Positions 61,367 to 63,944 of a stretch of 64,000 nt of DNA are shown here, one piece after another. This DNA is from Listeria cossartiae subsp. cayugensis (GTDB lineage: Bacteria; Bacillota; Bacilli; Lactobacillales; Listeriaceae). The translations under genes were made by a program, and so were the position numbers. The DNA is taken from contig NZ_JAARZC010000001.1 of the NCBI RefSeq assembly GCF_014229095.1, forward strand, positions 1,302,001 to 1,366,000, in the 5' to 3' direction. The notes beneath the pieces were generated by a model, which saw only the letters and a program-made list of their open reading frames with translations, was not told the origin of the DNA and made no database searches. The stretch's first letter is position 1. Each line of letters starts with the position of its first letter.

Positions 61367-61465
61367 TTAAAGGAGAGCTCCCTTGTCCCTGAAATGGTCC
61401 GGTGAAATAAATTCTATTTTTACGCGCAATAATGCCTTGTTTGAAGTCTTCATATAATTATTCAT
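61367..61465 (-). CDS. 32-residue leader peptide of the ABC exporter
   Basis: An ORF of 32 codons beginning MNNYMKTSNKALLRVKIEF and ending in KGALL. Its ATG (61465) is preceded at a standard distance by AAAGGAGG, as good as any site in the window, and by a plausible promoter. It ends about 120 nt before the exporter start. In Bacillus, bmrCD is controlled by ribosome-mediated attenuation at the bmrB leader ORF, so an analogous role is likely. The peptide itself resembles nothing I know. Confidence 0.6.
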   Translation of the reverse strand: MNNYMKTSNKALLRVKIEFISPDHFRDKGALL

Positions 61466-61531: not shown

Positions 61532-61574
61532 CAAATAATTGCAAATTGTTTAAAAATTATTTTTATTATATAAA

Positions 61575-61615
61575 AGAAAGCATAACGATTATCGTACATA
61601 TCGTTATGCTTTCTT
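61575..61615 (-). terminator. Terminator of the metalloprotease operon
   Basis: AAGAAAGCATAACGAT/ATCGTTATGCTTTCTT long perfect stem with a T-rich end. Confidence 0.88.
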
Positions 61616-61616
61616 C

Positions 61617-62237
61617 TTATTTTTCTTCTGGAACTACTTGGTTTTCCACTGCTTCTTCATACAGCTCAAATTCTTCTGTTTTGATAACTTCTTTTTCCGT
61701 ATCGATATTTTTCGTTTTCTCATCGAAGGAAATAGTCGAGTTCCCGCCCGCTACAAGCAAGGAGCCATCGTCTTGTATATATGCAGTGAAGATATAAACT
61801 TTGCCTACTTCCGGCAGTTGGTCATCTTCAAATACATCATAAGCAGATCCGTCTTCACGAATCCCACCTTGTTTTTCAAGTGAAATTTCTTTATTAACTG
61901 TTAATTCATTTTTTAAATTAGTAATTACTTCTACTTTATAATTTGTATACGCCTCACCAATATATGCTATCGAACCATCTTCTTGCTCGATTGGTGTTTT
62001 ATTTTTATATGCAGTTCCTGTCTCTTCTGTAACTTTCCCTACAAAAACATAATCAGCGTCACCAACGACTTCATTTGGATTATCTACATCAAGTGTATAA
62101 TCGGAAAAAATGGCATAAGTTGGTACATCTTTTTTCTTTGGTTCTGCTTTTTCGGCATACGTATTTACTGTTAAGAAACAGCCGACGCCTAAAATACTAA
62201 CTACTGAAGCAATAATTCCCATAGTTGTTTTTTTCAA
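61617..62237 (-). CDS. Secreted beta-rich protein, possible metalloprotease partner
   Basis: 206 residues with a signal peptide (hydrophobic 6-25, cleavage probably after TYA28). The mature region reads as a beta-barrel: GDADYVFVGKVTEETG, NYKVEVITNLKNELTVNKEISLEKQGG, then VGKVYIFTAYIQDDGSLLVAGG. This pattern recalls bacterial OB-fold/TIMP-like proteins (dyVfvGkV ... y.VeV...lKg ... G..Y.f). No cysteine pairs are present in the mature part. The start is TTG behind AAAAGGGG. It is 14 bp downstream of the metalloprotease gene and shares its transcript. Confidence 0.7.
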   Translation of the reverse strand: MKKTTMGIIASVVSILGVGCFLTVNTYAEKAEPKKKDVPTYAIFSDYTLDVDNPNEVVGDADYVFVGKVTEETGTAYKNKTPIEQEDGSIAYIGEAYTNYKVEVITNLKNELTVNKEISLEKQGGIREDGSAYDVFEDDQLPEVGKVYIFTAYIQDDGSLLVAGGNSTISFDEKTKNIDTEKEVIKTEEFELYEEAVENQVVPEEK

Positions 62238-62251
62238 TGTGTGTACCCCTT

Positions 62252-62746
62252 TTAATATTTTTTATATGCTGCGTCATACGAAATTTTATCATTTGTGGAT
62301 AAAGTCGTTTTCGATGTACTGTACTGATACATAACGTCCGAAGCTGCATTATGCGCTAATCGTAAACCATGTCCTAATTCATGTGTAGCCACATTTTGTT
62401 TCCCAGCGTTATTCTTTTTATCCATATTTTTCTTGTTAAACGTGATTTTCCCATTGCTGTAAGTCGTTGCATTGATATTGTTATTTGCTGAAATATCACT
62501 ACAATATACATCTGATTTATTCGTTGCAGACGCTGGTCTAATAACACCTTTTTTATAGGCATTCCAAGTGTTAGCTCCACTTCTAATAAAAGACATATAT
62601 TTTGAATTTCCGGAGTAATCCAAGTGTTTGCTAGAATCCACTAGATCCCAACCATTGATTTTTGCGGCCGCACTCGCTTCTTGTCCCGGAAGGAAAACCG
62701 TCCATAAACATACAAATGCCACTAACAATGTTACTATTTTCTTCAT
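62252..62746 (-). CDS. Small secreted metzincin-type metalloprotease
   Basis: 164 residues: signal peptide with cleavage after ASA near residue 26, then a mature enzyme of about 138 residues. The zinc motif THELGHGLRLAHN gives His122, Glu123, His126 and His132, and DVMYQY supplies a Met-turn (Met139), as in matrixin-like M10 peptidases. There is no prodomain with a cysteine switch; the only mature cysteine is Cys82. It would be a very compact, constitutively active protease unless controlled in trans. RBS AGAGGAG. Confidence 0.85.
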   Translation of the reverse strand: MKKIVTLLVAFVCLWTVFLPGQEASAAAKINGWDLVDSSKHLDYSGNSKYMSFIRSGANTWNAYKKGVIRPASATNKSDVYCSDISANNNINATTYSNGKITFNKKNMDKKNNAGKQNVATHELGHGLRLAHNAASDVMYQYSTSKTTLSTNDKISYDAAYKKY

Positions 62747-63382: not shown

Positions 63383-63622
63383 CTATATACTAATGATAAT
63401 ACTCACTACCATAACGACTATACCGAATACAAATGCCACGAAGAATCCATACCACTTCTCCTTATAGGTAGCAAACGCTGAAACTGCATAAATAAGCAAA
63501 TAGATGAGTTGTAGCCAGAGCGGTGAATTCATTCCTTCTTTCGTCTGTATCATCGTCCACAAACTATTTAGTAAAAATAGCATAAATAAACCAATTAAAA
63601 CAATCTTGATGATTTTTTTCAT
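63383..63622 (-). CDS. Small membrane protein A
   Basis: 79 residues, unrecognised, with three hydrophobic stretches (about 4-24, 33-53 and 57-78) and short polar turns such as QTKEGMN. It has its own AAAGGGAG site and a strong terminator. Similar in size and layout to the next small ORF upstream. Confidence 0.7.
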   Translation of the reverse strand: MKKIIKIVLIGLFMLFLLNSLWTMIQTKEGMNSPLWLQLIYLLIYAVSAFATYKEKWYGFFVAFVFGIVVMVVSIIISI

Positions 63623-63725: not shown

Positions 63726-63944
63726 TTATTTGTACGGATAGAAATTATTGAGTAATACCAGAATAGCGATAATAACTAGATCTACACGCAAAACATCTTT
63801 CTTATCTGCCATACAAAAAGCATGAATCAAACAGCCTAAAATGAGAATTGGCCAAGTTAAAGCCTCATTAATTATCGGAGAGGCGAGTGTAGCTAAAAGC
63901 ATAATAATTATAAATGTGTATTCAATTCCTTTAGATTTACTCAT
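63726..63944 (-). CDS. Small membrane protein B
   Basis: 72 residues, unrecognised, with three hydrophobic segments (about 9-24, 28-44, 52-68) and a DKKDVLRVD polar turn. It has an AAAGGAG site 8 bases before the ATG. The 100 bp between it and the next gene hold no clear terminator, so the two may be co-transcribed. Confidence 0.68.
   Translation of the reverse strand: MSKSKGIEYTFIIIMLLATLASPIINEALTWPILILGCLIHAFCMADKKDVLRVDLVIIAILVLLNNFYPYK

Follow-up and report, generated by a model that had tools for sequence, protein, structure and literature searches.

A metzincin gene and its predicted TIMP-fold partner at a chromosomal locus of Listeria: a second pair of the Mtz-Tim kind

The locus described here encodes a small secreted-type protease of the metzincin clan, followed directly by the gene of a second exported protein, and raises the question of how such a protease is controlled and whether the neighbouring protein is its regulator. 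It lies in the window, the stretch of 64,000 nucleotides of Listeria cossartiae subsp. cayugensis that was analysed. The kind of pair has already been described in Listeria, by Boichis and colleagues in 2021, and the copy in the window is a second, unstudied one (PMC8235301). The published pair, Mtz-Tim of L. monocytogenes 10403S (LMRG_00713/00714), consists of a secreted metzincin and a TIMP-fold lipoprotein, adjoins a cI-cro switch and is located near tig. Mtz-Tim pairs have been reported in several Firmicutes genera and have been linked to prophages, and the text of this paper that was available holds no mention of the window locus (PMC8235301).

The locus and its surroundings

The sequence-only reading had placed two open reading frames 14 bp apart, and both were found there on the minus strand. 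The features of the locus are:

62252..62746, minus strand, Mtz-type metzincin protease gene (open reading frame, 164 aa, ATG start)
62351..62383, minus strand, zinc site HELGHGLRLAH of the protease, residues 122-132 (from the sequence)
62330..62332, minus strand, Met-turn methionine M139 (SDVMYQ), at least 90% conserved across 37 relatives
62238..62251, intergenic gap from protease stop to partner start, 14 bp
61617..62237, minus strand, Tim-type partner gene (open reading frame, 206 aa, TTG start)
62163..62231, minus strand, N-terminal hydrophobic helix of the partner, residues 3-25 (helix in the model), signal peptide or membrane anchor
62097..62108, minus strand, F-S-D-Y segment of the partner, residues 44-47, at the position of TIMP residue 1 (structure alignment), an inferred candidate processing site
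61629..62108, minus strand, predicted NTR/TIMP-like beta-barrel domain of the partner, residues 44-203 (structure model)
61572..61617, minus strand, hairpin 3' of the partner gene, probable transcription terminator (folding energy against shuffles)

Judged by their spacing, the protease and partner genes are likely to form one transcript. The strong terminator proposed earlier is borne out by the folding of the hairpin (-23 kcal/mol; z -7.1; no equally good fold among 200 shuffled sequences), but not by a terminator pattern scan, the output of which does not contain it.

The protease passes the Pfam Peptidase_M10 cut-off (25.8 bits, cut-off 24) and shows the metzincin/matrixin (M10) features, namely the HExxHxxxxxH/D ligands, the Met-turn and the catalytic-domain fold. 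MMP-like karilysin and snapalysin were the closest proteins in structure comparison. A signal peptide was recognized by eye at about residues 1-26 and is followed by a catalytic domain of about residues 28-163. The mature chain of about 138 residues, together with the fold match from residue 28 onwards, leaves no room for a prodomain; the zinc motif, the Met-turn and the short prodomain-less chain claimed from the sequence are thus all present. In the metzincin motif, position 8 is Arg129 in place of the usual glycine. This glycine is also substituted in 12 of the 30 relatives encoded adjacent to a partner, so that motif position 8 is not diagnostic in this protease family. The third zinc ligand is a histidine in 27 of these 30 relatives and an aspartate in three, and the zinc site ends in LRLAH or LRLGH in the window-type orthologues displayed.

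An ABC exporter gene pair flanks the locus on one side and two small open reading frames, followed by tsf, rpsB and leuS, on the other; CcdC is also among the neighbours (gene names were taken from the sequences and from L. monocytogenes annotation). The same core genes surround the pair in L. monocytogenes, where the order is rpsB, tsf, an Lmo1656-family gene, a VanZ-family gene, a 'matrixin family metalloprotease', a hypothetical protein and two ABC genes. From gene order we take the pair in this species to be lmo1654 and lmo1653. The latter is listed as a GWAS gene in one paper. No mention of lmo1654 was found in the literature searched, nor was the window locus found described there as a pair. 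No cI-cro regulators or mobile elements were seen beside the window pair, the neighbours of which are chromosomal. Several database records had suggested otherwise and were rejected. A L. monocytogenes 'phage' record (L044) carries ABC exporter and ribosomal-protein genes alongside the pair and resembles a piece of chromosome, and the L. monocytogenes 'plasmid' records NZ_LR134401.1, NZ_LR134403.1 and NZ_CP030101.1 contain core genes of the chromosome (leuS, rpsB, tsf; tig) or are of chromosome length (2.9 Mb).

Further small open reading frames were observed in the vicinity. One of 32 residues (61367-61465, minus strand, MNNYMKTSNKALLR...FISPDHF...), with a good ribosome site, separates the hairpin of the partner gene from the ABC exporter gene. 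L044 and 15 of the 16 window-type loci conserve its core, and it may serve the exporter pair as a leader peptide. Two small membrane-like frames (63383-63622 and 63726-63944, minus strand) occupy the position that the Lmo1656-family virulence-factor gene and the VanZ-family gene have in L. monocytogenes.

Searches with the two window proteins found protease and partner in the same 15 of the 25 genomes of the genus, adjacent every time. In one of these 15 (G015) the protease is split in two pieces, and genome G004 has two copies of the pair. Wider profiles revealed other pair types, for example in G006 and G008, fused in the latter; both genomes are without the window type. The window's own genome harbours three divergent pairs. 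A locus of the published Mtz-Tim type was located in this genome (L106), in the relative L019 and in L. monocytogenes, and the third pair lies at C1:413.9-415.1 kb (L107, 2939-4114), its partner having a plain hydrophobic helix. The window protease shares 35% identity with the published-type protease of G022, and the window partner aligns with the published-type Tim at 17-18% identity. By sequence comparison, the window pair belongs to an orthologue group separate from that of the published pair.

Two additional observations concern gene content in Listeria. Three divergent pairs flank tsf/rpsB in G012 (L166, 659-1856, 2654-3821 and 9273-10443), the position that the window pair occupies. The window's own genome also encodes a partner-type lipoprotein that has a lipobox and stands alone, without a metzincin next to it (L164, 1553-2131; C1:256.0-256.6 kb), and 13 of the 15 genomes with the window pair have a match resembling it with no protease match nearby, as judged from profile matches.

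Fold, anchoring and N-terminal register of the partner

The segments DYVFVGKV, VEV...LKNEL and GKVYIF, from which a TIMP/OB-like protein had been proposed, occur in the partner, and the proposal agrees with the structure model. TIMPs carry an N-terminal Cys1 and conserved disulfides. The AlphaFold model of the partner (pLDDT 85.7, pTM 0.75, from an alignment of 56 sequences) was compared with known structures twice, and TIMPs and other NTR domains were at the top in both comparisons; in one of them, by Foldseek, the TM-scores are low (0.29-0.35) and general OB folds appear from rank 6 on. A TIMP/NTR-type OB fold is predicted for the partner, with good confidence. The TIMP family of Pfam (PF00965) matched the window partner at 12 bits (E 0.18), below the cut-off of 23.1, and one of 56 partner family members reached E 0.049. 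Profile searches of the PDB with the partner yielded chance-like matches only and none to potempin, and potempin A was not among the rows shown in the structure comparisons of the model. Cys1 and the TIMP disulfides are absent; the sole cysteine is Cys20 in the hydrophobic helix, and no cysteine follows residue 45 in any of the 32 paired partners. An archaeal match (L040) was dismissed as chance, a single peptide within a protein of 940 residues.

The N-terminal helix of the partner may be a signal peptide or a membrane anchor. The hydrophobic stretch of 12 window-type partners has a mean Kyte-Doolittle value of 2.1-2.8 over 19 residues; three protease signal peptides score alike (2.0-2.5), and hydropathy therefore does not decide partner anchoring. 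An alanine at which cleavage could occur, in TYA, THA or TNA followed by E, is found in 11 of the 16 window-type partner orthologues and is lost in five. Cys20 is kept in 14 of the 16 and replaced by serine in L028 and L031; the lipobox-like GVGC around it is unusual, and hydrophobic residues follow the cysteine. A reading of the paired set suggests that many partners of other genera are held by a plain helix or through a lipobox. For Tim a lipobox has been reported in Listeria and found absent in other Firmicutes (PMC8235301). The sequence of the window partner would allow a free, a lipid-anchored or a helix-anchored form, and we lean towards an anchored one.

Mtz removes about 50 N-terminal residues of Tim, in a zone at about residues 49-55, and needs its active site to do so (PMC8235301). 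In the structure comparison, the match to each of the 14 TIMPs among the 50 rows shown begins at TIMP residue 1 and model residue 43-45; the numbering of two of these entries sets out from 301 and from 1001. Residues 44-47 form a modest conservation peak in the partner family, with a tendency to x-[AGS]-[DS]-[YFW] (47 sequences), and the segment has a near-constant spacing to the first strand (53 of 72 sequences, anchored by pattern). It aligns with residues 54-57 of Tim of L. monocytogenes strain NCTC7974, at the end of the published cut zone or just beyond it; this zone starts at most 6 residues before the TIMP register. This agreement is suggestive and not exact, because an exposed linker beside a barrel is easily cut and NCTC7974 is not the strain of the paper.

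Pairs and natural fusions in other genomes

The partner profile matched 78 places in 60 of the 398 genomes sampled from the class. At least 47 of these places are immediately preceded on their own strand by one of the protease-profile matches listed, which in two cases shares a frame with the partner. Inspection of 30 of the other 31 places revealed six with an adjacent HExxHxxxxxH/D frame missed by the profile and 24 with none, one at a contig end, so that a metzincin accompanies the partner at 53 of the 78 places at least. The count of 47 is based on 120 of the listed protease matches; the listed ones omitted had no partner place on the same genome or contig or lay more than 1 Mb away from one. 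The expectation that the two genes occur together is supported by these class-wide places, by the identical set of 15 Listeria genomes and by the natural fusions described below. Independent occurrence, which had been named as evidence against a dedicated pair, was not seen for the window type in Listeria, but does apply to the 24 of 30 further class places lacking a metzincin. Partner-type places of this sort indicate that the partner fold has other uses. One of the 78, G000 C1:113204, which is the place beyond the 30 inspected, covers only the first ~65 positions of a 521-residue frame; it was taken to be a signal-peptide match and is still included in the count.

In a sample of the phylum, 63 of 398 genomes gave partner matches. 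Twenty-two of these places, chosen for strength or large frames and not at random, comprised 11 with an upstream metzincin, three with one in the same frame, seven with none and one without a frame. A protease-partner pair is present on a Planococcus plasmid. The nearest relative outside Listeria in a phage collection (L042, a human-faeces scaffold) is a partner-type lipoprotein of 37% identity with no metzincin. Partner-type domains were also observed behind an anti-sigma-like N-terminal part with one membrane helix and no adjacent metzincin (L113, L120 and L122); to judge from their sequences, the NTR domain may be an outside sensor in these proteins.

The distances among proteases and among partners are correlated (Mantel r 0.85 for 32 pairs and 0.76 for the 29 that remain without three window-type orthologues; none of 5000 permutations reached either value). 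This co-divergence is confounded by species history, which contributes to the correlation.

In several genomes the two proteins are joined in one frame. A protease followed by an NTR domain was found in G077, G051, G008 (Listeria) and G235 (start missing); the fusion proteins are L104 (378 aa), L165 of G008 (326 aa), L169 (367 aa) and L105, which has no start. No second signal or anchor was seen by eye between the domains of these four. The reverse order is present in G708 and G866, in frames of 959 and 968 residues (L171 and L172) with InlB-type repeats behind the matrixin domain. An apparent AxA-type end of the signal peptide, read by eye, puts the start of the NTR domain in L171 and L172 at 14 residues before the first strand, where it coincides with the conserved segment of the partner family. 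An NTR profile, the source alignment of which holds none of the six fusions, scored them at 70.2, 51.8, 47.3, 43.7, 36.2 and, for L165, 32.9 bits; the window protease as a control scored 1.4. The NTR part of L165 had not been listed by the genome profile search and was found on direct scoring.

Regulation of the protease and comparison with known systems

On balance we favour, by a modest degree of confidence, the view that the partner is a direct cognate regulator of a protease without prodomain, of the Mtz-Tim kind, with fold, pairing and fusion supported by prediction or comparison. TIMPs inhibit MMP-like enzymes and the protease is closest to karilysin and snapalysin; the predicted fold of the partner therefore favours such a direct role. 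The scheme that would follow starts from a minimal secreted matrixin-like protease, Mtz, lacking a latency prodomain, and from Tim, an NTR-fold protein outside the membrane that is probably tethered at first by its N-terminal helix or by lipid. Tim would bind the protease directly and control it, presumably by inhibition. Mtz would cleave the linker of Tim immediately ahead of the barrel, a cut published for the paralogue. The freed NTR domain, its new N terminus near the position of the zinc-binding residue 1 of TIMPs and possibly in contact with the zinc, would then occupy the active site and restrain the protease that released it, making that protease self-limiting. The fusions in both orders could represent the same arrangement in cis; in the NTR-first proteins it would be signal peptidase that makes the N terminus. 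This more specific version, in which a clip near TIMP residue 1 lets the new N terminus of the freed domain block the zinc, is put forward tentatively and is rather unlikely to hold in full. The extension to a large, mostly unrecognised bacterial family of TIMP-fold regulators of matrixin-like proteases, each generated as an inhibitor by the protease that it targets, is likewise doubtful.

The published model is the alternative that survives best, although we consider it unlikely as well. It holds that the protease frees the partner from the membrane and that the freed NTR domain, alone or with the protease, alters the cell wall, with no inhibition involved. Mtz and Tim jointly sensitise cells to lysins and penicillin, an effect that requires both proteins and is abolished by an inactive protease, and the cleavage of Tim likewise depends on the active site (PMC8235301). 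By analogy with this paralogue, the joint phenotype reads more like a partner acting as effector than as inhibitor. On the other hand, since no anchor is seen by eye between the domains of the four protease-first fusions, membrane release does not appear to be the function shared across the family. The co-divergence and both fusion orders also point to direct contact.

A quite improbable alternative is that the protease harms surface proteins of neighbouring cells while the partner shields the producer, lone partners being orphan immunity proteins. The several divergent pairs per genome (three in the window's own), the additional pairs at this position in G012, the lone lipoprotein L164, the published prophage links (PMC8235301) and the binding of karilysin by potempin A of Tannerella, stated in PDB titles (complex 8b2q), would all suit this explanation. 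Co-expression of Mtz and Tim, however, sensitised the producer as well as its neighbours, with no protection of the producer (PMC8235301). A role of the partner as a chaperone for the exported protease, as the sequence-only reading also suggested, or as its tether to the cell surface would suit a protease without prodomain and the existence of fusions, but is very improbable, as tagged Mtz without co-expressed partner was, as predicted, mainly found in the supernatant, in a strain that kept its chromosomal partner gene (PMC8235301).

For Listeria, the window locus adds an unstudied chromosomal pair to the one published, and the same genome has a third. Deletion of one pair leaves the others, and the further pairs therefore bear on how earlier single-pair work is read. 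TIMPs are usually regarded as animal proteins. If bacterial NTR partners inhibit matrixin-like proteases by means of the N-terminal register that TIMPs use, the MMP-TIMP arrangement would have two separate origins or predate animals by far, and the pairs and fusions offer a direct route to testing its origin. The wider family, the two fusion orders and the register make the window pair more than an ordinary paralogue.

In comparison with Mtz-Tim, the window pair likewise consists of a small secreted-type metzincin (signal peptide by eye) with a TIMP-fold partner directly after it; it differs in lacking an adjacent cI-cro switch, in its location between an ABC exporter pair and tsf, in the absence of an LTAC lipobox from the partner and in Arg129 of the zinc motif of the protease (PMC8235301). 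With TIMPs and other NTR domains, such as agrin NtA, the partner shares the predicted barrel, the helix before the first long strand and the N-terminal register. Unlike TIMPs it has no disulfides, no Cys1 and no Pfam match above the cut-off, and its N terminus is borne by a hydrophobic helix. Dedicated bacterial inhibitors of metzincins include potempin A, which has a protective role, and AprI of Pseudomonas aeruginosa, which acts by an N-terminal mechanism. The karilysin/potempin A system of Tannerella forsythia also has a prokaryotic matrixin paired with a gene for a small lipoprotein inhibitor, but there the inhibitor gene precedes that of the protease, while the partner gene follows it here (PMC7296668). 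AprI is similarly dedicated to its target, the metzincin alkaline protease, and its interaction has been likened to that of TIMP, although its structure is not TIMP-like (PMC8235301).
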